This document shows, piece after piece, positions 948 through 62,160 of a stretch of 64,000 bases of DNA; the stretch's first letter is position 1, and each line of letters opens with the position of its first letter. This DNA comes from Owenia fusiformis (taxonomy: Eukaryota > Annelida > Polychaeta > Sabellida > Oweniidae). The stretch lies in contig CAIIXF020000001.1 of assembly GCA_903813345.2 (NCBI GenBank), positions 30,247,915 through 30,311,914 of the forward strand. The letters are read 5' to 3'. Both the position numbers and the translations under genes were made by a program. The notes beneath the pieces were generated by a model that saw only the letters and a list, made by a program, of their open reading frames with translations, was not told where the DNA came from and searched no databases.

Positions 948-3900
948 GTTATGGATCTGCACCTACACACTTGCTGTATCTGCTGGTGCAGTTTTGCTGC
1001 TTCCTATATCTATAGTGAGCAACGAAGTCCTCATCTGGTACCCTAAGAGTTACTATGTCAAGTGGCTGAATAGTTCTCTCATACATGGTAAGTAAAATAA
1101 ACCACAATACAGGGTATGGTTCTGGAAATGTACGGTAAAAGTATGTAAAGGGCCCCCTAAAACCACTTCAAAATCCAATCTTTAAACTTTGTAAAATGTG
1201 TGTGTGTGCAGAGTACATTGTAATTCTGAAACTGTCCATGCAGATACATACACAATTATACATATGTATGTATGTTTTATTCCAGGTCTTTGGAACTATA
1301 TCTTCCTGCTGTCAAATCTAGCATTGTTCATCCTGATGCCATTTGCCTACTTTTTCACTGAATCAGAGGGATTTTCAGGCTCTAAGAAGGTATGATATGC
1401 TCAGTTTAAACTATACAAGCATGTTTTTGTTTTAAACGTGCAAAAATATAATTTATAATTACTGTTGACCTACCTACAAGAGAAAATGAAAATAAACAAT
1501 CTAAAATGTCAGTGCTGTCATATTTCAGGGTATAATGGCCAGAGTGTATGAATCACTGGTGTTACTGTGCTCTCATATTTCAGGGTATAATGGCCAGAGT
1601 GTATGAATCACTGGTGTAACTGTGCTCTCATATTTCAGGGTATAATGGCCAGAGTGTATGAATCACTCGTGTTACTGTGCTCTCATATTTCAGGGTATAA
1701 TGTCCAGAGTGTATGAATCACTGGTGTTACTGTACTCTCATATTTCAGGGTATAATGGCCAGAGTGTATGAATCACTGGTGTTACTGTGCTCTCATATTT
1801 CAGGGTATAATGGCCACAGTGTATGAATCACTGGTGTAACTGCGCTCTCATATTTCAGGGTATAATGGCCAGAGTGTATGAATCACTGGTGTTACTGTGC
1901 TCTCATATTTCAGGGTATAATGGCCAGAGTGTATGAATCACTGGTGTAACTGTGCTCTCATATTTCAGGGTATAATGGCCAGAGTGTATGAATCACTGGT
2001 GTTACTGTGCTCTCATATTTCAGGGTATAATGTCCAGAGTGTATGAATCACTGGTGTTACTGTACTCTCATATTTCAGGGTATAATGGCCAGAGTGTATG
2101 AATCACTGGTGTTACTGTGCTCTCATATTTCAGGGTATAATGGCCAGAGTGTATGAATCACTGGTGTAACTGCGCTCTCATATTTCAGGGTATAATGGCC
2201 AGAGTGTATGAATCACTGGTGTTACTGTGCTCTCATATTTCAGGGTATAATGGCCAGAGTGTATGAATCACTGGTGTTACTGTACTCTCATATTTCAGGG
2301 TATAATGGCCAGCGTGTATGAATCACTGGTGTTACTGTGGTCTCATATTTCAGGGTATAATGGCCAAAGTGTATGAATCACTGGTGTTACTGTGCTCTCA
2401 TATTTCAGGGTATAATGGCCAGAGTGTATGAATCACTGGTGTAACTGTACTCTGATATTTCAGGGTATAATGGCCAGAGTGTATGAATCACTGATGTTAC
2501 TGTACTCTCATATTTCAGGGTATAATAGCCAGAGTGTATGAATCACTGGTGTTACTGTACGCTCATATTTCAGGGTATAATGGCCAGAGTGTATGAATCA
2601 CTGGTGTTACTGTGCTCTCATATTTCAGGGTATAATGGCCAGAGTGTATGAATCACTGGTGTTACTGTACTCTAATATTTCAGGGTATAATGGCCAGAGT
2701 GTATGAATCACTGGTGTTACTGTGCTCTCATATTTCAGGGTATAATGGCCAGAGACTATGAATCACTGGTGTTACTGTGCTCTCATATTTCAGGGTATAA
2801 TGGCCAGAGTGTATGAATCACCGGTGTTACTGTGCTCTCATATTTTAGGGTATAATGGCCAGAGTGTATGAATCACTGGTGTTACTGTGCTCTCATATTT
2901 TAGGGTATAATGGCCAGAGTGTATGAATCACTGGTGTTACTGTGCCTCCTGGCTATCCTAGTGTTTGGTCTGGCATGGGTCGCCTTGGCTCTTATTGACA
3001 AAGATACATCTAGCAGGAAGGCTCTGTGGCGTAAGTCTACTAAGAATGGCTATTAACAAGAAGTGTTTCAATAAATTGTTTAATGTCAAATTTATTTGTT
3101 AATGTGTGTTAAAAGGGAAGGGGTTGACTTCAAAATGTATACAAATTGATGATCATTTAATAGACCCCCAAAAAGAATTGTAGGAAAGTCACCAAATAAT
3201 TTGAAAAATGTCTAATCACCCAGTATAGGTAATCAATCAACCAAGCCCTACTATGTTCCTTTATGTTTCAGATGTTTGGAGTTTCTATCTGCCCCTGCTG
3301 TACTCATTTATCTCCCTGTTGGGGGTCCTCATGCTGCTGATCTGTACCCCAGTGGGATTTGCTCGACTCTTCACTGTCATGGGTCAACTTGTTGTCAAGC
3401 CACAGTTTTTACAAGACATCGAAGAGGAGATTAACACAGCGAGATTTGAAGAAGAGACTTTACATAGAAAATTGCAGTATAAAGGTACTTGAAATAGTAT
3501 GATAAGTAGGGGCTCTCAGAGTATACAGTATACCTGTATAGCTCGGCGGTAGCACAGGTACCTCTTACGCAATAGGTCCCGGATTTGATCCCTGTTAATT
3601 TGCTTGTTTGCGTAAAGTATTTCAGGGTATTTGACTGAGTGAGCAATAACTTGTACAAAAGGCTGTGGTGTGTACTTGTATGTCTATGTATATGTGCGCA
3701 TAAAAGAACACAGGGCTCCTTCTTCCAGGCTAATTATTACGCTAATTAAGACCGTATATATACAGGATATACCCAAGAGGTATTGCTCACCTCCATTGGT
3801 GGTAAACAAAATACAATAAAAGTGTACTTTGGAACACCATATATAGTTGTTTCTTTATTCTTTATTAATAGTTCTCAAAGATGAAGTCAAGAATTATTAT

Positions 3901-18300: not shown

Positions 18301-21300
18301 GTTTATCATATACCTAGGCAAAGGGGCTAAATAAAGTTCACTCACCATACGTATTCAATTATTTTGATAAACAATTGTTACGAAAAGGTTTTGTATATAT
18401 ATATTTTTAAACAAAACTTACTTTTGCGACCTAAAACTGAAAAGAATTTAAAACAAGCAAATTTGAGGTGTCCGTAATGCTGTCTCTTTCATCATTTAAA
18501 CATAAATTGACAGATTTTGAAACAAACACAGATAATTCAGTGGATAGCAATTGAAAGACCGTGGAATAATCCACAAAATTGGATACTTTTGTTTGGGCTG
18601 CAATGTGAATTTATCTAATAATGTGACTTTATTTTGTTAAATCTAATTCATTGGGTGAGGAGGTAGATATGTTCAAAACAAATATTACTTTTTCTTCATA
18701 TTTTGCAACCAGTTGTTTTACAAAATGTGTTATCAATGATATAAGACTTAAAAAAATATGTCAGAAACAAAAATATTCCTGTTTTGAATGTTGGTTTGTG
18801 AGCATATTGAGAGTGAATTGTCCGTAATGCCAATTTCAGTACCTATAAAGATGACAGTATTTTGTAAATTTGCAGATGCGGATACTTAGGAATTTTTACA
18901 TCATCAAAAGCCTGACATATGAAAGTGTAAAAATTTTCATAAACAGGAAGGAAAACTTGAAAAAATTTTTTTGACATTTTGAAATGTAAAAGTGTCACTT
19001 ATTCGTGAAAATGCCTATGACCAAATAACACGTGAAGGACAACATTGCCAGACTTGCACCAGGATCAGATTATAATTCAGAGGGCTTGATACAAAATATA
19101 TTCTCTTAAAAAACTATCTGTTTCTGAGATGACAAAGAAGACAGCTGTTCACTTTTTTCTTGAAATATACTACTTGTTTACCATATGTTGAAGTAATATG
19201 ATTGTACACGCTCTTCATCATTCAAGAGAGGATCTATCTCCAAGAATAGATTAAATCAGACAAAGTTTGATGGCTTCTGCAGTCCTGTCTTGTTATCTTC
19301 AAAGCTACTCAGTATAAAAAATAAATGCCTAATAATAATACTTACCATTTTGCCTTCTTGACCACCTCCCAGAAAGCAGGTTTAGGTTGAGTACAGTCCC
19401 CCTCTGATGCTTGCTTGAAGAGGCCATAGAATCTGAGCATCAAACTGTAGGATGGTTGGTAGGAGCCTGCTGAAACTAGCCACAATTACAATAGTGGTCA
19501 AGGAAACGAAGCCAATACAACACTGCACAACACACTACAAATCTACATACTCTCAGTTAAAGGTGTGGTTCTAATACTAAAAGCAACACAAAATAAGATG
19601 TGTTTGAAATTTTTGAAAAGTATCAAAAGTAGCATCAAGAGTGAGATGTAATACTGTAAGCTGTACTGTAAGATGTAGTGAGCATACATGAGGCATTCAA
19701 CTGGGTGGAACAAGTAATAAACGCATTAATCTTACTTCAAAGCAAAGGTCATGATAATTTGCAGAATGTATAGTTTAGTAACTGTAACCAGGATTTTGAT
19801 AGCAGGTATGCAAGGCCGAAGGCCGAGCAAAACTTGGGGGCCCAGGTGCATGTGTCCCCCGGAATTTTTTTGATTTTAGACCAAAAACCATGGTGCATTC
19901 TGAGCATATCGAACTGTGTAATGGGGCAATACTCCATCATTTAGGGTACACAGCTGCCTATGCCAGGTTGTACCTGGTAACTACATGTATCTTGTGCAAT
20001 ATTAATTGAGCATGCAAAACAGCCAAGCTACACCGATAGCAAGGATTGCAACAACACACATTTGGTTACATATAAAAATACATTTACAGGAACAATTCTA
20101 AAGATAAAACTCTTCTATGATCTGGGATAAGCACACTAAGAAGATGCAACATTTATATTGAACACTGTATTTCAAAGAAAATTAAGTTGATTTGTGATGA
20201 CTATGAGAAATATAGACGTTTGATCAGCATCTTTAAAGGCAGAATTAGATCTATAGGGGTGACAAAAGCACATGTTAGCACCTATAGGGGTAATCTAGCT
20301 ACCGATTCTCAAATCTGACTTACAAGTAGTTCAACGTTGTTAAACTCAATAACGGCGTTCTTTATTATTAGGAATTTTCTTGGGGCCGTTATTGAGATCT
20401 TGCCGGGGCCATAAGACATATCAGATTAAAAACTAGGCCCAGGCTAGGTCTAATGTTGTTGGACTAACTTACAAGGAGTATTGATACAGATCCGTGAGCC
20501 CCTAAGCTGCCCTAAGAGTAAACTTTGGGGCCCCACTTCACATGCTATCTATTGCAAGACTAACGCCTGGTGTAACCGTCACCATGTTATTCGGTGTTTT
20601 TTAAGTAGCGCAAGGATCCTGCCATGACCGTGGCAGTGTTATTTTGTAAGCCTGGTATAACCGTGACAACGCTGTATTATATTGCAAGGCCTGTCATGAC
20701 CGTGAGTGTTATCGTGGAAGCCTGGTGCGGCCGTAGCATTTACGTTTAATTTAAGAATTTTTTATTGTTGTTTGTTAAGCGATTTGTTTACTATCCACTT
20801 TTAAATATTTGTATATTTTATGTCTCTGGTCTAAATTTTTATTAGCGTGACACAAATAACTTGTCTTATTCTGTGTAAATGATTAATTATTTTAGAATAT
20901 GCGGAAATAATGTGAATATGATGTCTAGTAGTAATTTTGATATTAACATAATTAAGGTAGTTAAACACCATGATCATATAGTGTTAAACTGTTTAATTGT
21001 ATCGTATCATTATAATGACGATCACTTAAAATTGTTTAAGGATATTTCTGACATTAATATGATTCATATCTACAGTGCCCTAGTACTAGACATTGCAATA
21101 CATTATCACGGACTAAGCCTAAATTTCTACATGACCACCCACATATGTGGCCTTGCAATACTATATTACATTGTCACGGTCATGGCAGGCCTTGCAATAC
21201 TATATTACCTTGTCACTGTCATGCCAGCCTTTGTAATACACAGTGTCACGGTTATAGCAGTAGTCCTAATCATAAATTTCTACATCACCACTCTCATACC

Positions 21301-22938
21301 TGAACTTGCAATACTACATTACACTGCCACAGCGGTCATACCAAGCCTTGCAATACTACATTACATTGTCATGGTCATGCCAGGCCTTGCAGTACTATAT
21401 TACATTGTCACGGTCATGGCAGGCCTTGCAATACTATATTACCTTGTCACGGTCATGCCAGGCTTTGCAATACACATTGTCACGGTTATGGCAGTCCTAT
21501 CATAAACATTACATTGTCACTGTCATGGCAGGCCTTGCAATACTGTATTACATGGTCACGGCCATGCCAGGCCTTGCAGTACTATATGACAGTGTCACGG
21601 TCATGCCCGGCTTTGCTATAAACATTGTCACGGTTATAGCAGTCCTAATCATAAATTATTGCAAGGCCTGTCATGACCGTGGTAATGTTAAAGCCTAATA
21701 TGACCGTGACAATGCTTATAAGGCCTGTCATGACCGTGGTAATGTTAAAGCCCCGTATGACCGTGACAATAGTTGCAAGGCCTCTCGTGACCGTGGTTGT
21801 ATTTAAAGTAGCATGAGAACACTGTAATGACAATTTTTCTTCGTGTTTAACTACCTTAAATATGTAAATAAAGACTACTAAAAATATGTATTAATTTCAC
21901 AGTGAAAACCTAATTTTTACTCATAAATTTGCGAACAAACTATATCTCTACTCTCATTCAAGGAGCTTCGATTCGAAAGCATATACTTTCTATAATGATC
22001 AATTAATAAGATTTATTCATAAAAAATACCAACAGCAACGGGCGAAACATGAAGGTCATTAATGTCATATAAAGGTTGCGGTTGCGCCAGGCTTACACGA
22101 TTACACTACCACGGTCATGGCAGGCTTTTTAAAATAATACAGCATTGTCGCGGTTATACCAGGCTTTCACGATAACATTACCACGGTCATGGCAGGATCC
22201 TTGCGCTACTTAAAAAACACCGAATAACACGGTGACGGTTACGCCAGGCGTTAGTCTTGCAACAGATAGAGTCTCCCCCACTTTGGAACAGAGAGGGAGG
22301 TGGATTTTCTTTTCAGGACAATTCTATTATATGTTCCAGTGTATTAGTTCAACAAGTTAAACCTAGTCTGGGCCTTATTTCTTCTCTGACATATCTTGTG
22401 GCCCGCCCTAGGTTTAACTTCCGTGCCTATTCAGCCCTTGATGCAAAAAAATTTAATGGTGGCCTATGGTTCCGCATGAAATTTGATGCGCGTTTAATTA
22501 ATAACTGATGGTGGGAATTTGCAACAAACGAAAGCATAGCACGGAAGTTAAACCCAACCACGGCAACACGAACATTCAGATTAAAAAATGAAAGCCGTGG
22601 TATTGGGTTTAACTTGTTGAACTACCAGTGTATGTGCTATTTGCCATGTTTTATATCACTTAATGTATTCATCACAATAATAATGGACTCTGCTCATTCT
22701 AAATATGATCTTTGAACTGGCAACTATGATTTTTATACCAATTGAAATTTATGGATATTTATCTTTATTTTTCTATTGAACCATAACATCGATTCTGAAA
22801 AATATTACACCGGACGATTATGTATAATAAGATGACAGATATGAATATGTTTTAATTGGTATAACACTTACCATTTTTGGGTAAACTTTGAATTACTTTT
22901 ACGGCTGCATCAAACTTTTCTTTAGCTGTAGCCGCCAT
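12339..22938 (-). CDS. ACBD5: Acyl-CoA-binding domain-containing protein 5 (peroxisomal tail-anchored tether)
   Basis: Nine exons, read leftward: 22872-22938, 19346-19469, 16105-16177, 15635-15818, 14757-15037, 13929-14358, 13460-13631, 12866-12944 and 12339-12455. All are GT-AG and sum to 508 codons plus stop. Residues about 5-95 form the acyl-CoA-binding domain (AAVKVIQSLPKN, FKQASEGDC, KWDAWMKFEGM, IIETMP). A FFAT-like motif, EFCDTSE, at residues 231-237 sits in acidic surroundings; in human ACBD5 the FFAT binds ER VAPA/B to make peroxisome-ER contacts. Residues about 250-420 are low-complexity Ser/Gly-rich. A coiled coil follows at about 421-470 (VNEQIATALVRLQQDM). The tail is SWWPFP plus one membrane segment (about 483-501) ending NRRRR, the tail-anchor layout of the family. 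The start ATG fits the family N-terminus. The protein should bind very-long-chain acyl-CoA on peroxisomes. The introns are loaded with mobile elements. Confidence 0.94.
13665..13790. repeat. TGTCACCACCTGCC repeat in ACBD5 intron
   Basis: This is the second copy of the repeat at 12125-12240. Its left end (TTAACATG, CAAAATGTCACCACC) also matches the left end of the large element at 52228-54190, so it looks like a short member of that family. Confidence 0.5.
16272..19015. mobile_element. 2.74-kb non-autonomous DNA transposon in ACBD5 intron 2
   Basis: Perfect 28-bp terminal inverted repeats (16272-16299 and 18988-19015) begin GGCATTTTCACGAATAAGTG. They are flanked by the direct repeat TATGA (16267-16271 and 19016-19020), a 5-bp target-site duplication. 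The inside is very AT-rich with no long ORF and no transposase that I recognise. A 15-mer, GAGGTGTCCGTAATG, recurs at 16864, 17029, 18465 and, with two changes, 18815; it occurs inverted at 17361-17375. Superfamily not assigned. Confidence 0.88.
20545..22269. mobile_element. 1.7-kb foldback element built of about 40-bp CACGGTCATG repeats
   Basis: The outer arms, roughly 20545-20632 and 22180-22269, are near-perfect inverted copies (start CTATCT, then TTGCAAGACTAACGCCTGG). Inside, degenerate units centred on CACGGTCATGSCAGGC recur about every 40 bp. They run in direct orientation over about 21170-21640 (about twelve units) and inverted at 20570-20730 and 21660-21800. The 208-codon open frame at 20879-21505 is a translation of these repeats and not a gene. 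No target duplication was found. It lies in ACBD5 intron 1. Confidence 0.8.
22345..22624. mobile_element. 280-bp MITE with 9-bp target-site duplication
   Basis: Inverted ends TAGTTCAACAAGTTAAACC (22345-22363) and its exact complement (22606-22624) are bounded by CCAGTGTAT at 22336-22344 and 22625-22633. A 9-bp duplication fits Mutator-like elements best; Merlin (8-9 bp) is the alternative. Subterminal copies of the GTTTAAC phrase add a second inverted pair. It sits in ACBD5 intron 1, 75 bp right of the foldback element. Confidence 0.88.
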
Positions 22939-43740: not shown

Positions 43741-45165
43741 TCATCTTGGATCAAGTGTGTAATGATGGGACATTTTCTTCATTGATTTGAGTGTATTTGC
43801 CACGGCTTCAAACCAACCCTCTTCATCGTACACTATGTTCAGTCTCTTACAGACCTCTTGTATGTGCTTGCTGGCTGATCTGTAATTGTGTCTGGGCATC
43901 ATAGGATAAAGATGATGCTCAATATGGAAGTTCAATCCCCCGTGGAACCAGTCCATCCACCATGGTGTTACAATATTGATATTGCTCTCGATCTGCATTC
44001 GGTACCATTCAGTCTCCTGACAGATATCCTTCTTCTCGTGGAATGGCTTAGAGTAATGACTGATAAGTAGTTGGATGTGGAGGATGCCTTCCATTGTGGA
44101 AGAAATGTAGTAAAATAAGATAGCCTCGCCCCAAGTGCTGAAATTGTTGAGTAAAATGTACATGATAAGCCAGTGTATACTCCAGAGTGCCCATTCAAAC
44201 CAGCGTCTCTCTTCCTTGAAGCTGTCCAGCATTATACCAAAACGTCCAATAAATATATTAGCAGGCAAGAATGTAAAATGTTGAATGCTGATGAGGAACT
44301 TTTGGATTTTGCCAGAGTGGAAGGGAAATAGTTTATAATTCTGCGCCCAAACATCTTCGTGTGCTTGAGGGTCCATGAAACCGTCTTCGTAGTCGACCGT
44401 ATTTGTCATGCCATGGTGTACCCTATGATCGTCTTGCCACCAATGGCCACTCACGCCAAAACATACGGTCCCACAAAATGCACCTATCCACGTGTCCAAA
44501 TTGCGGACTTGCGTTCCGTGTGAATGCATGAAATCGTGCATGAGGAATCCAGCTTGTTGCCAAAAAAGAAACAATCCAAACGGTGCGATAGTGTACAGGA
44601 TAAACCAGTTCTCAATGTATTTAGTCATTAGATAAACGGATAGGTAGATACAAAAGAGGAACACAAACTTCCCCGTGAACCATACTTGATTTGACTCAAA
44701 AAAGCCATTGTTTTTGAAGAATATGTGTAATTCAGCGAAAGCTTTGGTGGCGGGATCAGCAAACGATCTCTGATATGTACCAACGGGTCGACGATGTTTT
44801 AAAACACTATTGTCATGGAATGCTCTAAAGACACTTGTTGCGTCTTTCCCTATGAATTCCTTTATTATAGGTCCTCCTGGATGTTTGGCAATGAAGTGTT
44901 TTACATCATACCATGCTCCAGCTATACCAATTAACTTCGCATCACTGTCAACGGCCTTGTTCGATTTCAGCTCTTGCGATTTCACTATATTTTGATTTTG
45001 ATCAACCTTGGTTTCATCGTTTGGAGTTGCTCCTCCATTTCCTTGTAATATGATACCTTCGCTACTTTGCACAATGTTACTAGGGTATCTTTTATGTATA
45101 TTTGTTAGGTTGTTATCATTCGCGGCACTTTCCCTCTCCTCCTGTATCGTTTTTGATATCGTCAT
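43741..45165 (-). CDS. Cytochrome b5-fused fatty acid desaturase-like protein A
   Basis: A single uninterrupted exon of 474 codons. Residues about 75-135 form a cytochrome b5 domain with HPGG (95-98) and a second heme-ligand candidate, His117 (FRAFHDN). The desaturase domain follows with the three di-iron histidine boxes HDFMH (210-214), HRVHH (247-251) and HIEHH (414-418). Hydrophobic segments lie at about 165-205 and 325-370, so it should sit in the ER membrane. The b5-plus-desaturase order is that of front-end desaturases and of insect cytochrome b5-related proteins. Box three reads HIEHH where classic front-end enzymes have QIEHH, which favours the latter, less-characterised group. Substrate cannot be told. 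The ORF resembles gene B over its whole b5/desaturase part and shares its C-terminal LDPR. The start is the first ATG of the frame; residues 1-75 look disordered. Confidence 0.88.
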   Translation of the reverse strand: MTISKTIQEERESAANDNNLTNIHKRYPSNIVQSSEGIILQGNGGATPNDETKVDQNQNIVKSQELKSNKAVDSDAKLIGIAGAWYDVKHFIAKHPGGPIIKEFIGKDATSVFRAFHDNSVLKHRRPVGTYQRSFADPATKAFAELHIFFKNNGFFESNQVWFTGKFVFLFCIYLSVYLMTKYIENWFILYTIAPFGLFLFWQQAGFLMHDFMHSHGTQVRNLDTWIGAFCGTVCFGVSGHWWQDDHRVHHGMTNTVDYEDGFMDPQAHEDVWAQNYKLFPFHSGKIQKFLISIQHFTFLPANIFIGRFGIMLDSFKEERRWFEWALWSIHWLIMYILLNNFSTWGEAILFYYISSTMEGILHIQLLISHYSKPFHEKKDICQETEWYRMQIESNINIVTPWWMDWFHGGLNFHIEHHLYPMMPRHNYRSASKHIQEVCKRLNIVYDEEGWFEAVANTLKSMKKMSHHYTLDPR

Positions 45166-45276
45166 CTTGTCAATTTATTGTAGGGCCGGCTTGGTTGTTG
45201 AAGTCTGTTTGTGGCTTGTTGCTTACTGATGTAACCTGGTTCCCAAACTGTGATCGGCTACAGTATTGACCAATAG

Positions 45277-48186: not shown

Positions 48187-49695
48187 TCATCGAGGGTCAA
48201 GTTTAAAATGCGTAGACATTTTCTTTAGATGCATCAAAGTTCTCTTGATGGCTTCAAACCAGCCACATTCATCATAGTGTATTCCCAGGTCTTTGCACGT
48301 CTTACGTATATGAATACTTGCTTCTCTGTATTTGTGACGGGGCATTAATGGGTAAAGATGGTGCTCTATATGAAAGTTTAGTCCACCGTGAAACCAATCT
48401 AGCCATTTAGGATTCTTGATGTTGATATTGCATTCGATCTGCATGCGATACCAGTTTTTCTCCACGCAGATATTCTCTTTCTGGAAGAAATCCTTGCAGT
48501 AGTGACTGATTAACAGCTGTACATGGAGAATTCCCTGGAAGATGGATGCCAAAGAATAAAATATGATGACCCGACGCCAGGTGGGGAGAAAAGAGAACAA
48601 CAGAGACATCCATGACCAATGGAGCATGAACGCAAACCATTCGTACCAACGCCGTTCCGTTTTGAAGCCATCCAGCATAATTCCAATCCTGCCTACAATA
48701 ACACAAATTGGGATGAAGGTAATGTGCTGGATCCGGATGCATAGTTCTTCGATATTCGAGGAGTAGAAAGGGAAAAGTTTCTCATTTTGAGCCCATATCG
48801 GTTCTCGCATTTGTGGATCGAAAAATTGTTGGCCGTAATCCACAGTGTTGGTCAGGGCATGGTGTACGTAGTGCTCATCGCGCCACCAGTGTCCATTCAC
48901 TCCGAGGCAAGTAGTGCCAAAGAAAAGGCCCAACCAACGGTCGATTTTACGATTATGGAAGCCCTGGTTGTGCATAAAGTCGTGCATGAAGAAGCCACAT
49001 TGTTGCCAAAAGGCGGCGATAGTGAAGGAGGCAAGGAAATGCATGTACCATTGCGTGTGACAGGTAACCAGATACCATGTTAGTCCAAAAAGTAAAACAG
49101 TTACCATCACCTTTTTGAGGTACCAGCTGAGACTCGTTTTAAAGAAGCCATTGTTGATGAAAAATAAATGTAAATTGGCAAAAGCTTCGGCTGCTGGGTC
49201 GCTTGAACATTGTATATACTGTCCTACTGGTTTGCGATGTTTTAGCACATCTTCGCCATGGAACGCTTTGAACACGGGTGTCGAATCTTTCCCTATAAAA
49301 TGTTCAATGAGATCTCCACCTGGATGATATGGTATAAAATTAGTGATATCATACCAGTTTCCATCAATTCCGATAAGTTTGGCGTTTGGATGCTCCTTCA
49401 TATACCGATTATAGTCTATTTGTTGTGTTGGAGTCAGGCTAAATCCATTCCTCTTATGCAACATCGTGTGTCCATTTGATATTCCGTTCGTTCTGGCTTT
49501 TTTGTAATTGTTGTTGTTCATCTGATTGTCACATGTATCATTCACGATAGCATGCTTTCCTGGTCCGACTGCTGTTGTGTTGGAACAAGAGTCGGCTGCT
49601 TTGACCATGCTATAGTTACATTTCATGTCATCAATAGTTGTGATTCGTTCAGTTGACTCCCCTTCGACGCTGGAGGTTCTAACACTCAAAGTCAT
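48187..49695 (-). CDS. Cytochrome b5-fused fatty acid desaturase-like protein B
   Basis: One coding exon, 502 codons. I start at 49695: an acceptor (TATTACAG, ending 49707 on the plus strand) lies 11 bases upstream of this ATG, implying a 5' UTR intron, and the 21 codons reading further upstream would be intronic. The cytochrome b5 domain (about 105-165) has HPGG at 124-127. Histidine boxes are HDFMH (238-242), HYVHH (275-279) and HIEHH (442-446). The b5/desaturase region is a clear paralogue of gene A (shared WFHGGLNFHIEHHLYP, LLISHY, LDPR end), so the two arose by tandem duplication. The N-terminal 100 residues are Asn/Thr/Ser-rich and not shared. Probable ER membrane oxidoreductase taking electrons from its own b5 domain; substrate unknown. 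Confidence 0.88.
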   Translation of the reverse strand: MTLSVRTSSVEGESTERITTIDDMKCNYSMVKAADSCSNTTAVGPGKHAIVNDTCDNQMNNNNYKKARTNGISNGHTMLHKRNGFSLTPTQQIDYNRYMKEHPNAKLIGIDGNWYDITNFIPYHPGGDLIEHFIGKDSTPVFKAFHGEDVLKHRKPVGQYIQCSSDPAAEAFANLHLFFINNGFFKTSLSWYLKKVMVTVLLFGLTWYLVTCHTQWYMHFLASFTIAAFWQQCGFFMHDFMHNQGFHNRKIDRWLGLFFGTTCLGVNGHWWRDEHYVHHALTNTVDYGQQFFDPQMREPIWAQNEKLFPFYSSNIEELCIRIQHITFIPICVIVGRIGIMLDGFKTERRWYEWFAFMLHWSWMSLLFSFLPTWRRVIIFYSLASIFQGILHVQLLISHYCKDFFQKENICVEKNWYRMQIECNINIKNPKWLDWFHGGLNFHIEHHLYPLMPRHKYREASIHIRKTCKDLGIHYDECGWFEAIKRTLMHLKKMSTHFKLDPR

Positions 49696-50794
49696 GTCGG
49701 CTGCAACTGTAATAAAAACGACATTGATATTAAGCACCCAGAATAAACCATGCATCAATATTAAGCATCTACGATTTTTATCCGTGGTTTTGTCTTTGAA
49801 GTGCTACTCTGCCCTTATCATTGATAAATGACATTTGTACCGTATTCATTTATGAAAAAAACGTTAACTGTACCTTGCAACGTGCGTATGTTTATCAGTC
49901 GAGTACCTTAATACTCATTCATAAACAATTTCACATCATATTAATTATTTGTATTTTTTCATTTAGAAACATTGCGAAAATTGTATGGAACAAGTCAAAT
50001 CAGTCCAAACTCTCTAAAGTTATATTTAATCAAAACTATTGCAAGTCTTCATAGGTTATGTGTACTTTTTATCACTAATTAGTAATCATATTAGTTCAGG
50101 AAACATATACACACCACAATTCAATTTGTTGTTAAATTCAAATGACATTTGAATCTTTTCAACATGTGTTTGATATAGCCTAACAGTTGCTGAAAGGAGC
50201 ATTTATTGGCTACTCGATAACGCGGTTAGATTTGAACAGTTTCCTGAGTTTACTCACAGAGCCGGAGCCAGATCCAGCCCCTATTGGTATTAGGCTCAAA
50301 GAATAAATGGTATATTTATTGAGCCTAGACACTACTGAAGAAGAGGTAATCTGGCAGAGGTCCGTGCTGAGCGTGTATTCAAGAATGCAACTACCGGCTG
50401 CCGGATTAACCTACTATTTTATGACCAACTCATTTAAATATGATATGGCAGGTACATAAAATAGTAGGTTGATCCTGTAGCTGACAGACGTTCGCGAATA
50501 CCACAGGAAGTTGTATCAAGTCCTTTTTGGGCCTAACAGAGCTTTTTTCCCTTCCCCACTCTCAGAACAGATGTATTCCTCAAGGATTCCCTCCTCGCGC
50601 TGAAAGAATAGGTGAAATCAAAAGTAGATTTTCTACAAGATCCGTATTCAAAATTCGACCAAACTTGCACAACTTACACGGGGGTAAAGCAGACCCGATG
50701 ATGCAATGAGCTTGCTCGGCGGTATCATGACTGTGTAACGGGTCTTAATGTATAAGTGTGCTCGGCGGTAGGTTCAAACAACGCGGATCCTCAA

Positions 50795-52227: not shown

Positions 52228-54190
52228 CAAAATGTCACCACCTAAAACAATTTGGTCAATTTAAAGCAAGTTGGAAAATACCTTTTGACCTTAAGAAGGT
52301 TTTTGAAGATTTGAGCTTCTGGGATCTTGTAGATGATTTTGAAAAAAGAAATTGTTCAATCTGAAGCAAGTTAAAACTAGTTGCACACAAATCTTAAGTC
52401 AGATTTGAACTTCTTAGAACATGTAGATGATTTTGAAAAAAAAATTCGTCAATTTGAAGCAAGTTGAAAAAATACCTCTTTGACTTTTTTTGACATTGAG
52501 AAGGTCATTGAAGGTCAAATGTCAAATGTAAAGTCAGATTTGAACTTCTGAGAACATGTAGATGATTTTGAAAAAAAAATTAAGTAAATTTGAATCAAGT
52601 TGAAAAAAGACCTTTTTGACCTTGAAAAGGTCATTGAAGGTCAAATGTCAAATCTAAAGTCAGATTTGAACTTCTGAGAACTTGTAAAGTCAAAGGATCT
52701 AGTGCACCCGCCATTATGATCTCCCCATGAACAAAATGAATCATTTTTAGGTGTAACATAAAGAATACAATGTCACATAATACTGTGGAAAATATTTAAG
52801 CGTTTGGACCCACATGGGCTGAGGTTGAGGTCATTAAGTTCAGCAAGGGTGTATTGACTTGCCATTGGATGTGCTCCATTGACTTAACATGTGGATATCA
52901 TCAGATTCCAATGGAGTCCATTGGTTTCTATTGATTTTCACAAAAATACCTAAAATACACTATGACCTGAATCGATTGCAAATTAAATAATTTCACAATA
53001 TGACACAAATGGTATATCACATCAGATGTGCAAATAATAAGTTTGCAATCGATTCAGGTCATACTTCAAATTAAAGGCTTAGACATTTTTTTCATCATTT
53101 TTTTCCTACAAAATGGCTATAGGAAAATGCTTCAAAAGCAACTTTTACACTTATGAAATCCCATACAACTTTGTAAATCCAAAGATTATACTGTTATGTT
53201 TCATTAATTAATAACATATTTGGATAAGATGTAGGGATGTGTAGGATGCAAATGGATTTTGACAGACACAAAAACACTTCCTGGTTTGGCATCTCGACCC
53301 CTGTACACTTTATGATTGAATATTGGCCCTAATAAGTGGCCCATTCATCAATACAGTGCTGAATATAGGTCAAAAAGATACTAATGTACATATAAATGTA
53401 ATAATAAAAGCAGTATTTTTATTTTGAAAAATCAGATGAATTATTTTTTTCTCATGGGGAGATCCCAATCAGGCAAGGTCCTTTGAACTTCTGAAAAGAT
53501 TTGGTCAATTTGAAGCAAGTTGAAAACAGACCTTTTTGACCTTTTTTGACCTTGAGAAGGTCATTAAAGGTCAAATGTCAAATCTAAAGTCAGATTTGAA
53601 TTTCTGAGAACATGTAGATGATTTTGAAAAAAAAAATTAATCAATTTGAAGCAAGTTGAAAAAAGACCTTTTTGACCTTTTTTGACCTTGAGAAGGTCAT
53701 TGAAGGTCAAATGTCAAATCTAAAGTCAAATCTAAAGTCATATTTGAATTTCTGAGAACATGTAGATGATTTTGAAAAAATTTTTTAGTCAATTTGAAGC
53801 AAGATGAAAAAATACCTTTTTTGACATTGAGAAGGTCATTGAAGGTCAAATGCCAAATCTAAAGTCAGATTTGAATTTCTGAGAACATGTAGATGATTTT
53901 GAAAAAAAATTTAGTCAATGTGAAGCAAGTTGAAAAAAGTCCTTTTTGACCTTGAGAAGGTCATTGAAGGTCAAATGTCAAATCTAAAGTCAGATTTGAA
54001 CTTCTGAGAACATGTAGATGATTTAGAAATAAATTGAAGTCAGTCTAAACAGTATTTGTTAAGTTATAGGAAGTGGTAAGAAATTGTTACAGACGCCGGA
54101 CGCCGGACGCCAACCTCCAACCACCAACCGCCGTCGCAAAAAAACGGAGACCATAACAATATGTCACCACTTTCGGTGGTGACATAATAA
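52228..54190. mobile_element. Element with TGTCACCACC ends carrying a 125-139-bp minisatellite
   Basis: The left end ATGTCACCACC (about 52231) and right end GGTGGTGACAT (about 54187) are inverted. The right end also forms a hairpin (CACCAC, TTTC, GTGGTG). Inside are at least seven units of TTTGAAGCAAGTTGAAAA, TTGACCTTGAGAAGGTCATT, GAAGGTCAAATGTCAAA, AGTCAGATTTGAA and CATGTAGATGATTTTGAAAA. They end in a GCCGGACGCC-rich stretch near 54093. A separate element interrupts the array at 52691-53485. A short relative sits in ACBD5 (13665-13790). Confidence 0.75.
52691..53485. mobile_element. Nested 795-bp inverted-repeat element
   Basis: CAAAGGATC at the left and GGTCCTTTG at the right open imperfect inverted ends sharing GATCTCCCCATGA and AATGAATCA-like phrases. 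An inner pair (CCTGAATCGATTGCAAA near 52975, TTTGCAATCGATTCAGG near 53042) makes a second hairpin. The minisatellite resumes on both sides, so it inserted after the array formed. Confidence 0.7.
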
Positions 54191-58940: not shown

Positions 58941-59043
58941 AACAGATACCATTTTTGTTTTTGTCTTACTTTTATGTTTCATGTAAGCATTTTGCTTGCA
59001 TTTTTGTTTTTGTTCTTTGTTCATGATGGAAGCATAATTTCAT

Positions 59044-62000
59044 ATGGTTTTAATTGCCTTTTCAACGAAAATGGATAATCCCTTGAATGTATTGCCTTTT
59101 CATAACTGTTCCAATGTTGACTTCCTCAATGACACAAATCAGCTTGATTTTTATGAATCTTTAATTTTTGACCCTCTTGATTTTGAGAGGAGAATCGCAA
59201 CCGAAGACCAATATGAAAATGTACAATCAGATATGCAGGACATTGCTCAAAAGTGCAAATTTTTTAACATTGACCAGTTCAACTCAACTGTGAGGCAGGA
59301 CTCTTTTTCTCTTGTTCACTTCAACATGAGAAGTCTTCCAAAAAATAACTGGAAATTTCAAATATTTGAATCACTGAGTAGGACTAAATTTTCTGTAATT
59401 GCCATGTCAGAAACATGGCTTAATTCCAATATTGAAAAACTTTATAAACTTGATGGATACAACTCTGTCTTTAATTCTAGGAATGGTTCAAGAGGTGGAG
59501 GCATTTGCCTTCATATTGATAAGCATTATTCATTCAAAGTAAGAACTGATCTTCAGTTAACACTTAATCAATGTGAATCCTTAACAATCGAAATTGAGCA
59601 GATATCTGGAAAAAATATCCTTGTTACTGGTATATATAAACCACCAAATGCTAATTTAAATGATTTTAATATAGATTTTAATTTACTGCAAGAGAAAATC
59701 GTAGCAGAAGATAAAATTTCATATATATTAGGTGACTTTAATATTGATATTTTAAAATCAAATCAACATGAACAAACAAATGAATTTATATGTAACTTGC
59801 ATTCAAATAACTTTATACCTTTGATATATAGACCTACTAGAATTACTCAAACTACTGCCACACTTATCGATAACATTTTTTCAAATGCAAATAACATAGC
59901 TCACACAGGTGTATTACTTTATGATATTTCTGACCATTTCCCAATATTTGCAATTAATGATAGAACAAAATCTTGTGTTAAAAAAAGAAAAATTCAATAT
60001 CGGGTTATTAATGATGAAACAGTTAGTAGACTTAAAAATGAGATATCTTTGATCAACTGGGATAATTATGATGAATCTCCTTGTATTAACACTGCTTACA
60101 ATTCATTTTTAGATATTTTATCCAGAACATATAACAGATGTCTTCCTATTAAAAATAAAATAATTAAAACGTATAATGATAACAATAAACCATGGATAAC
60201 TTTAGGGATAATAATTTCAGCCAAATATAAAAACAAACTGTACACCAAATATAAGAAAAATCCAACTTTGCAGAATAAGACAGTTTACACTAGGTATAAA
60301 AATAAATTAAATCATGTTATCAGAAATGCAGAAAAGATGTTTTATAAAAATAAATTTGAAGAGAGCAAAGGTAATATAAAGAAATCTTGGAATATTATTA
60401 ATAGCATTTTAAAAAGAAAACCAATTAATTCAAATACAAATTCCTCATTTGACCTTGGTGAACGGAAAACAACTAATGGTGAAGAGATAGCAGAACATTT
60501 TAATCACTTCTTTAGCACAATTGGTAAAAAACTTGCTGATCGTATTAAGACTAACATTGACCCAATGATTAACATGAGAAAAATGAATCAAAATTTAAAC
60601 TCTCTGTTCATTACCCCAGTTACAATAAATGATGTCACAACAGGAATTAAATTACTAAAGGATTCTGCAGCTTCAATTGACGATATAAAACCAATAGTTA
60701 TAAAATCGCTTCATGAATTTCTAGCAGCACCACTTGCACAAATTTTCAATTTATCAATTTCTACAGGTAAATTTCCAGATGCACTTAAAATTGCTAGAGT
60801 TATCGCAGTATTTAAAAAGGGACTTAAAGATAAATTCACTAACTACAGACCAATTTCTATTTTGAGTGTTTTTGCGAAAATGTTAGAAAAACTTATTCAT
60901 GATAAGGTAATGGTATTCTTAGAAAAATATGAATTACTCTATTTACAGCAATATGGCTTCCGAAAAAAACATTCCACATATATGGCTCTTTTAAATTTTA
61001 TTGAAAACATAAGAACAGGTTTAGACAAATCGGAAACAAGCATTGGAATATATATTGATTTAACAAAAGCCTTTGATACCGTGGATCATAATATACTGTT
61101 GAATAAACTTGAATTTTATGGAATTAGAGGAACCCCACTTTCTTGGTTTAAAAGTTATCTTGAAAATAGGAAAATCATTACAGAATATACAATACATGAT
61201 TTTGAAATTGACCCAAGTACTATAACTGATATGAAATATCAATCATCTGCTTCTAATATTGAATATGGAATTCCACAAGGCTCTGTTTTGGGGCCCCTCT
61301 TATTCATTATTTTCATAAATGACATATATTTAACATCAGATAAATTAAAATTTGTCCTATATGCAGATGACACAAATATTTTATTGACTGATGATAACAT
61401 TGATAATTTAGAAAATGATATAAATGAGGAATTGAAGAAGGTTCATGATTGGATGACATCTAACAGATTAACACTCAATGTAGAAAAAACAAAATTTATG
61501 ATTTTTGACATAAAAAGAATCAACAAAATTGACAACTTTGAAGTAAAATTAAATAATCAATCAATAGAAAGGGTAAATAATATTAATTTTCTAGGAGTAA
61601 TTATTGACTCCAAGTTAACATGGGCTGCTCACATAAATGCACTTTGTACCAAAATTTCAAATTTAATTCGATTAATATATAAAACTAGACACAAACTAAC
61701 TTTGAATGCCTTGCTGACAACCTATTATTCTTTAGTATATTCATATATAAGTTATGGAAACATTTTATGGGGCAATGCAACAAAAAATCACTTAAACAGA
61801 CTATTTATTTTGCAAAAGAAATTTCTAAGAATAATGAAAAATTCTGAAAGAACTGCTCATTCAAGTCCCATCTTCAAAAAGTTCAAAATATTAAATATTT
61901 TTGACATTAATAAATTTCAAACGCTCACTTTTGTGCAGAAAACTGTAACAGAATCTGTAGACTTTCCGTTTCATAATTTTAAACATTTTTTTCAAGAGAG

Positions 62001-62160
62001 AACAGATATACACACCCATGATACTAGATACAAATATAATTTAACAATCAAAAGGTTTAGAACTGAAACTGGTCGAAAATCAATTGCGATTAGAGGAGCA
62101 ATACTGTATAACTCACTGGCTAAAGACTTCAAAGAAGGCAAAATATATAAAGAAATTTGA
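59044..62160 (+). CDS. Non-LTR retrotransposon ORF2: endonuclease and reverse transcriptase
   Basis: An uninterrupted 1038-codon frame with a stop three codons before the first ATG; a second ATG at 59071 is also plausible. Residues about 87-305 are an apurinic-type endonuclease (SLVHFNMRSLP, AMSETWL, GGGICLHID, GDFNIDIL, YRPTRI, DISDHFPIF). Residues about 480-790 are the reverse transcriptase (NYRPISILSVFAKMLEKLIH, QYGFRKKHST, IDLTKAFDTVDH, GIPQGSVLGPLLFIIFIND, and LYADD with the catalytic Asp pair at 775-776). No RNase H is evident. The domain order and (ATTGA)n tail fit the CR1/L2 side of the Jockey superfamily. No frameshift or stop is seen, so this copy may be competent or only recently silent. 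ORF1 was not recognised upstream. Confidence 0.93.
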   Translation: MVLIAFSTKMDNPLNVLPFHNCSNVDFLNDTNQLDFYESLIFDPLDFERRIATEDQYENVQSDMQDIAQKCKFFNIDQFNSTVRQDSFSLVHFNMRSLPKNNWKFQIFESLSRTKFSVIAMSETWLNSNIEKLYKLDGYNSVFNSRNGSRGGGICLHIDKHYSFKVRTDLQLTLNQCESLTIEIEQISGKNILVTGIYKPPNANLNDFNIDFNLLQEKIVAEDKISYILGDFNIDILKSNQHEQTNEFICNLHSNNFIPLIYRPTRITQTTATLIDNIFSNANNIAHTGVLLYDISDHFPIFAINDRTKSCVKKRKIQYRVINDETVSRLKNEISLINWDNYDESPCINTAYNSFLDILSRTYNRCLPIKNKIIKTYNDNNKPWITLGIIISAKYKNKLYTKYKKNPTLQNKTVYTRYKNKLNHVIRNAEKMFYKNKFEESKGNIKKSWNIINSILKRKPINSNTNSSFDLGERKTTNGEEIAEHFNHFFSTIGKKLADRIKTNIDPMINMRKMNQNLNSLFITPVTINDVTTGIKLLKDSAASIDDIKPIVIKSLHEFLAAPLAQIFNLSISTGKFPDALKIARVIAVFKKGLKDKFTNYRPISILSVFAKMLEKLIHDKVMVFLEKYELLYLQQYGFRKKHSTYMALLNFIENIRTGLDKSETSIGIYIDLTKAFDTVDHNILLNKLEFYGIRGTPLSWFKSYLENRKIITEYTIHDFEIDPSTITDMKYQSSASNIEYGIPQGSVLGPLLFIIFINDIYLTSDKLKFVLYADDTNILLTDDNIDNLENDINEELKKVHDWMTSNRLTLNVEKTKFMIFDIKRINKIDNFEVKLNNQSIERVNNINFLGVIIDSKLTWAAHINALCTKISNLIRLIYKTRHKLTLNALLTTYYSLVYSYISYGNILWGNATKNHLNRLFILQKKFLRIMKNSERTAHSSPIFKKFKILNIFDINKFQTLTFVQKTVTESVDFPFHNFKHFFQERTDIHTHDTRYKYNLTIKRFRTETGRKSIAIRGAILYNSLAKDFKEGKIYKEI

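Follow-up and report, generated by a model that had tools for sequence, protein, structure and literature searches.

How does a gene find the start of its exon when the 3' splice site in front of it has been copied 26 times in tandem? The question is raised by an LMBR1L-type gene near the left end of a 64-kb stretch of Owenia fusiformis DNA (the window, used here for the whole 64,000-nt stretch, with positions counted from its first base). Tandem Repeats Finder reported an array of a 55-bp unit at 1512-2945, with 26.1 copies, 95% matches, 0% indels and a score of 2644; the periodic span is 1434 bases, that is, 26 × 55 + 4. With 26 copies at 95% identity, a chance origin is not an issue. Each unit comprises 13 nt of intron end, through the AG, and 42 nt of exon start. 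In the unit listing, GGTATAAT begins 26 times, at 1529 + 55i with i = 0 to 25, and the final start, 2904, runs on into the true exon. Both the 26-fold amplification of an acceptor with its exon start and the ending of the array in the true exon, as described in the first-pass annotation, are borne out. Its decoy positions (1530, 1585 and so on) need shifting, since the first exon bases lie at 1529, 1584 and so on, and its own 2903 falls off that series. An AG precedes every one of the 26 exon-start copies, as CAG in 24 and as TAG in 2; TTTTAG, which had been noticed at two copies near the exon, stands only ahead of 2849 and 2904.

Table 1. Features of the LMBR1L-type gene and its array (window coordinates), and splice-boundary arrays found elsewhere in the assembly
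Feature	Position	Strand	Evidence
LMBR1L-type exon	948-1087	+	tblastn 66% over 47 aa; ends from sequence
Exon directly 5' of array, donor GTATGA at 1390	1286-1389	+	tblastn 74% over 38 aa; ends from sequence
Intron, 1514 nt; 139 nt minus 25 extra units	1390-2903	+	sequence
CTAAAAT, possible ancestral branch site, left of array	1501-1507	+	read from sequence; inference
Splice-boundary array, 26 × 55 bp	1512-2945	+	Tandem Repeats Finder, unit listing
GTGC, left copy of 4-bp microhomology	1512-1515	+	sequence
330-bp superunit, first copy, units 1-6	1516-1845	+	sequence comparison
AG, first decoy acceptor	1527-1528	+	unit listing
Second 330-bp superunit (units 7-12), differing at 3 positions	1846-2175	+	sequence comparison
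AG, last (25th) decoy acceptor, TTTTAG	2847-2848	+	unit listing
AG, true acceptor, TTTTAG	2902-2903	+	unit listing, tblastn
True exon, 127 nt, GIMARVYESLV...RKALW, in phase 0, out phase 1, donor GTAAGT at 3031	2904-3030	+	tblastn 47.6% identity over 42 aa; Pfam LMBR1 over join
GTGC, right copy of 4-bp microhomology	2942-2945	+	sequence
Exon after true exon	3272-3484	+	tblastn 56% over 68 aa; ends from sequence
Acceptor array, Cys-loop receptor exon			Pfam 1.1e-14, firm
Acceptor array L007, mTOR exon, about 5 copies of 56-bp unit	G000:C1 about 1045300-1045600		PDB 2.8e-17, firm
Acceptor array L042, ALDH4A1-type gene, 100 copies of 56-bp unit	G000:C1:6916900-6923700		PDB 4.2e-13, firm
Acceptor array, VWA exon			2.4e-5, firm
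Acceptor array, Tudor exon			5e-10, firm
Acceptor array L032 and L060, SMUG1-type exon, about 34 copies of 40-bp unit	G000:C1:18535200-18538800		PDB 1.1e-34, firm
Acceptor array, C2H2-like exon			0.023, under Pfam cut-off
Acceptor array, 2OG-oxygenase-like exon			0.0017, under Pfam cut-off
Donor array L036, BRCT exon			1e-10, firm
Donor array L041, WD40 exon			1.2e-8, firm
Donor array L037, Muted exon			5.9e-15, firm
Donor array L035, tetraspanin-like exon			0.058, weak
Donor array, fifth exon-like locus			no Pfam match

The gene encodes a membrane protein of the LMBR1L/LIMR type. With human LMBR1L as the tblastn query, we located ten exons within the window; exons 949-3484, once joined, match Pfam LMBR1 at 6.2e-37. 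These matches confirm the earlier assignment of the exon at 2904-3030 to an LMBR1-type gene. Across the intron that holds the array, the join reads ...FSGSKK|GIMARVYESLV... against the human ...FAGSRK|GVLGRVYETVV... in the tblastn alignment. An Rfam scan of the 64-kb window matched no family. Elsewhere in the window, two neighbouring long single-frame genes, apparently intronless, lie on the minus strand at 43741-45174 and 48187-49803, and are presumably cytochrome-b5 fatty acid desaturases to judge by their motifs. A 1040-codon open frame on the plus strand at 59038-62160 has by eye the look of a LINE-type endonuclease and reverse transcriptase, and other tandem arrays occupy 21149-21797 and 53507-54042 (units of 39-57 bp and about 125-148 bp).

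The real exon is not singled out by the strength of its acceptor, as the decoys score at least as high as the true one. In a weight matrix covering -14 to +1 and derived from the other nine acceptors of the gene, a number that makes it crude, the true site scored 9.6 bits and the decoys 9.6-11.8, with 24 of the 25 higher and the one at 2849 tying. For comparison, held-out scoring of the nine real acceptors gave -8.1 to 10.4, and among the window's 3035 other AGs 0.6% reached 9.6 bits. Decoys and true site differ in little beyond the C or T before the AG. The first-pass annotation had taken the used site to be slightly distinct from most decoys; this is not supported, as decoy 2849 also has TTTTAG, a TAG ending occurs at 4 of the 10 acceptors of the gene, and the true site scores no higher.

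The consequences of choosing wrongly can be read from the frame. All 25 decoy reading frames run into a stop, at codon 26 in 20 of them and at codon 12 in five (a TAA; decoys 1584, 1804, 1914, 2134 and 2409), and every stop lies at least 104 nt upstream of the exon's donor junction at 3030. A TGA at the 26th codon, proposed for all decoys, is thus right for 20 and wrong for the other five, while the broader point that any decoy leads into a stop is supported. On sequence grounds the cell would have to take the most distal acceptor or produce many doomed transcripts. The array is not coding sequence. Its decoy starts look coding-like, which might suggest that part of it is translated as an alternative long exon; however, every decoy meets a stop by codon 26, and no plus-strand frame in 1390-3060 stays open for longer than the 50 codons that start at 2904, which are the true exon (minus strand, 49), so that such translation is almost certainly not taking place.

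A sizeable share of transcripts might nevertheless use the decoys and be truncated and destroyed, with copy number acting as a dial on LMBR1L output. In mammals, a stop well ahead of a later junction triggers nonsense-mediated decay, and the placing of the stop upstream of a later junction in 25 of 25 decoys fits that rule; the decoy scores (9.6-11.8 bits, with the true site at 9.6) and the inhibition of splicing in extracts when two sites are occupied, described in the available text of the study cited below, point the same way. We nonetheless regard this reading as unlikely: each decoy opens just 42 nt of exon ahead of the following acceptor, the amphioxus arrays discussed below are reported, in the text available, without aberrant mRNAs, and there is no consistent sign of selection for decoy upkeep, the AG being lost in 14 of 100 copies of a similar array at an ALDH4A1-type gene.

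We consider it probable that the array is a splice-boundary minisatellite that arose by duplication at GTGC followed by slippage or exchange, that its last acceptor is chosen by exon definition, and that it is a near-neutral passenger. Exon definition, the best-supported chooser, would most likely lead the spliceosome to the last acceptor, perhaps at some cost in efficiency, and the remaining array would leave as intron. The last acceptor would be favoured because no other opens an unbroken exon of ordinary size (127 nt) that has its donor at 3031, whereas behind every decoy there are just 42 nt before a further acceptor follows. In extracts, according to the available part of one study, a duplicated beta-globin 3' splice site, whose upstream copy carried 14, 55 or 205 nt of exon, was spliced very inefficiently and exclusively to the distal site; two 3' splice sites occupied at once inhibited splicing, and the authors cite an earlier report that exon length influences site choice (PMC5389562). 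Those substrates resemble the Owenia array in having identical tandem acceptors, the upstream ones with an exon stub of 14, 55 or 205 nt as far as that text describes them, and differ in that they present two sites in vitro instead of 26 in a living gene. Beta-globin 3' duplication substrates are reportedly the work of Reed and Maniatis in 1986.

Two observations count against this explanation. No acceptor in the array scores lower than the true one, which ties for last place, and the only strict yTnAy branch motif within 55 nt lies at -9, which is too close, in the 6 of 26 acceptors inspected. A looser, branch-like GTTAC lies about 20 nt upstream of the acceptor, and the branch site of the true exon would now have to fall in repeated, partly exon-derived sequence. 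Masking of the decoys by secondary structure was considered and rejected: three folded stretches gave z = -1.04, 0.62 and 0.97, and the true site forms the same hairpin; no inverted repeats of at least 12 bp were found in 1380-3040. Stepwise removal of the array by recursive splicing, with a donor regenerated at each acceptor, is highly improbable. As in recursive splice sites, a weak donor-like GTATAA follows closely behind the acceptor, one base inside, yet all 26 copies read AG|GGTATAA and not AG|GT, so that a surplus G would remain after every step and throw off the reading frame. The 55 nt between sites is also shorter than the usual animal intron.

The array probably originated in a tandem duplication between the two GTGC tetranucleotides, which would have copied the 13 nt of intron end and 42 nt of exon start; slippage or unequal exchange would then have multiplied the unit to 26 copies, with a six-unit step at a later stage. 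The duplicated 330-bp superunit noticed in the first-pass annotation is confirmed, with 3 of 330 positions differing between 1516-1845 and 1846-2175, and the match extends through unit 13, giving 385 bp with still three differences. Such a near-identical superunit indicates concerted evolution or turnover within the array. If the 25 additional units are subtracted, 139 nt of intron remain, and exon and reading frame are unaltered. Since each unit has a complete-looking acceptor, duplication would always leave one intact acceptor against the full exon. Although short tandem arrays can be mis-sized, and the available text on amphioxus reports a globin array of this type as aberrantly assembled in the draft genome, it is very unlikely that the assembler inflated or collapsed the array: 17 of the 55 unit positions vary and the variant units are interleaved across 1.43 kb, further arrays of like build occur elsewhere in the genome, and the likely source project, probably but not certainly the same, used PacBio reads according to the part of its report available. 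A whole-assembly search with two unit copies returned 13 matches, all inside the array, with no second locus.

The array would be close to neutral for the gene. Two more points count against the explanation. If double occupancy inhibits splicing as it does in extracts, 26 sites might lower expression; and a purely decaying neutral array need not keep its AG, which is kept in 26 of 26 copies here. Near-neutrality would explain how arrays of this sort are able to last at further splice junctions in the genome.

Such arrays were looked for in the assembly (498.26 Mb in 525 contigs; the published O. fusiformis genome is given as 505.8 Mb in 12 chromosome-scale scaffolds in the available text of PMC9977687). 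Three TTNCAGG motifs 33-63 bases apart gave 4476 matches against 1490 for the reversed pattern (3.0-fold), and three AGGTRAG donor motifs gave 4140 against 1084 (3.8-fold). These matches overlap, one long array being counted many times, and loci were taken from the first matches listed. Among the matches listed, the acceptor pattern marked 23 loci in the first 22.43 Mb of contig C1 (1.03 per Mb), the donor pattern 7 loci in the first 5.22 Mb (1.34 per Mb) and the reversed acceptor control 22 or 23 loci in the first 38.98 Mb (about 0.6 per Mb). One control locus is the acceptor array L029 itself, the only one among the controls whose exons were read. We read 18 of the 23 listed acceptor loci, the other five matching in sequence a dispersed repeat or a local duplicate that had been read, and judged open frames by eye from translations. 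An exon-like open frame adjoins the 3' end of the array at 8 of the 23 listed loci, six with firm and two with weaker homology, and 10 of the 18 read loci show no exon by eye. On the donor side, an exon-like open frame runs up to the first donor and ends there at 5 of the 7 listed loci (3 firm), and at two it does not; L035, L036, L037 and L041, at four places in G000:C1:441900-5219500, carry exon end and GTAAG donor in arrays 3' of exons.

Assuming that the start of C1 is typical, 8 acceptor loci per 22.43 Mb scale to about 178 genome-wide (95% Poisson 77-350), or 133 (49-290) for firm loci only, and 5 donor loci per 5.22 Mb to about 477 (155-1114), or 286 (59-837) for firm ones. On balance we favour the view that splice-boundary minisatellites are general in this annelid genome and number some hundreds of loci at acceptors and donors, with up to 100 near-identical decoys, and housekeeping genes (mTOR, SMUG1, ALDH4A1) among the hosts, and that the choice among dozens of equal sites would be made by something other than strength. 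A neutral sample of ten 10-kb stretches, set at round coordinates on contigs C2-C10, held one array (period 40-70, at least 3 copies), which adjoins no exon by eye; this scales to about 5000 arrays genome-wide (126-27761), a range too wide to gauge an excess or deficit of junction arrays.

The state of the copies gives no consistent signal, either way, of selection on decoy splice dinucleotides across the arrays counted. In the longest array, at ALDH4A1, 100 copies extend across about 6.5 kb, almost all at a spacing of 56 bp, with the AG present in 86 of 100 as against 26 of 26 at the LMBR1L-type gene, and 12 of its 14 losses are one common variant. The AG is intact in 14/14 copies at L010, 15/15 at L029 and 6/6 at L034, and the donor dinucleotide in 18/18 at L035, 22/24 at L036, 28/33 at L037 and 28/29 in the WD40 array, some donor misses being register shifts at indels; the count left out the mTOR, degenerate receptor, VWA and SMUG1 arrays and a 25-bp donor array. 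The unit length is a multiple of three in 4 of 14 arrays, the LMBR1L array included in the count, as expected without frame selection, so that frame appears irrelevant to these arrays.

Arrays of this kind have been described in amphioxus as 'mirages', that is, splice-boundary minisatellites for which published data suggest normal splicing. According to the available text of the two reports, the Adh3 mirage has 10-72 bp units and somatic instability, BflGb6 has 150-160 bp units with 6 and 3 of them in two haplotypes, further mirages occur in BflGb9, TnC and PGBD5, and Adh3 data and globin RT-PCR suggest that mirages do not interfere with splicing (PMC3087553, PMC3902484). The LMBR1L array has every testable anatomical feature of mirages: its unit spans the exon-intron boundary, the AG lies within the repeats (26/26), an AG or GT signal being carried by many but not all mirage repeats, and the authentic exon is intact at one end. 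As in the amphioxus arrays described there, the junction-spanning units carry AG or GT, the true exon stands at one end, 3' and 5' boundaries are both affected, and 55 bp falls within the reported 10-160 bp. Unlike those arrays as reported in that text, the Owenia ones have an annelid host, many loci in one genome, and 26 copies here and 100 at ALDH4A1, compared with at most 6-7 in amphioxus. The cephalochordate host belongs to the coining of the name and is not mechanistic. This genome contains annelid erythrocruorin-linker exons, with three exons on contig C6 matching the domain (two peptides at 41.5 and 32.9 bits, Pfam cut-off 27; one also with a weak PDB match to haemoglobin linker chains, E 0.0015); a GFP-family search of the assembly gave no match, and none in control genomes either. 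A COX1 search was also without a match. In the intron-gain model of Rogers, in which an AG/GT segment is duplicated in tandem (available text of PMC3087553), the copies likewise carry splice signals and are raw material for exons and introns; unlike in that model, no new intron is evident, and the human protein aligns across the join at the intron position. A literature search for splice-boundary minisatellites in annelids or elsewhere found amphioxus only, which is weak evidence with most subscription papers outside its reach; an earthworm paper, in the part available, deals with minisatellites inside introns and with exons duplicated in tandem, and not with arrays at splice boundaries.

The LMBR1L array is thus a mirage outside chordates, and if the genome-wide reading is true, mirages are not a cephalochordate peculiarity. 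What appears to be new is the abundance of such arrays in an annelid genome, at both intron ends and with up to 100 copies. If splicing falls cleanly on the last of 26, or of 100, near-identical acceptors, neither the strength of a site nor scanning for the first AG can be making the choice, and exon context must be the dominant factor. Natural arrays, in which the spacing, the number of copies and the true end are known, would offer graded tests of this exon-context rule with no need for constructs, and the genome would be a natural library in which to measure how exon definition overrides the number and spacing of sites. The arrays also suggest that splice junctions tolerate tandem duplication well, and that it may be a feeder for changes in introns and exons.
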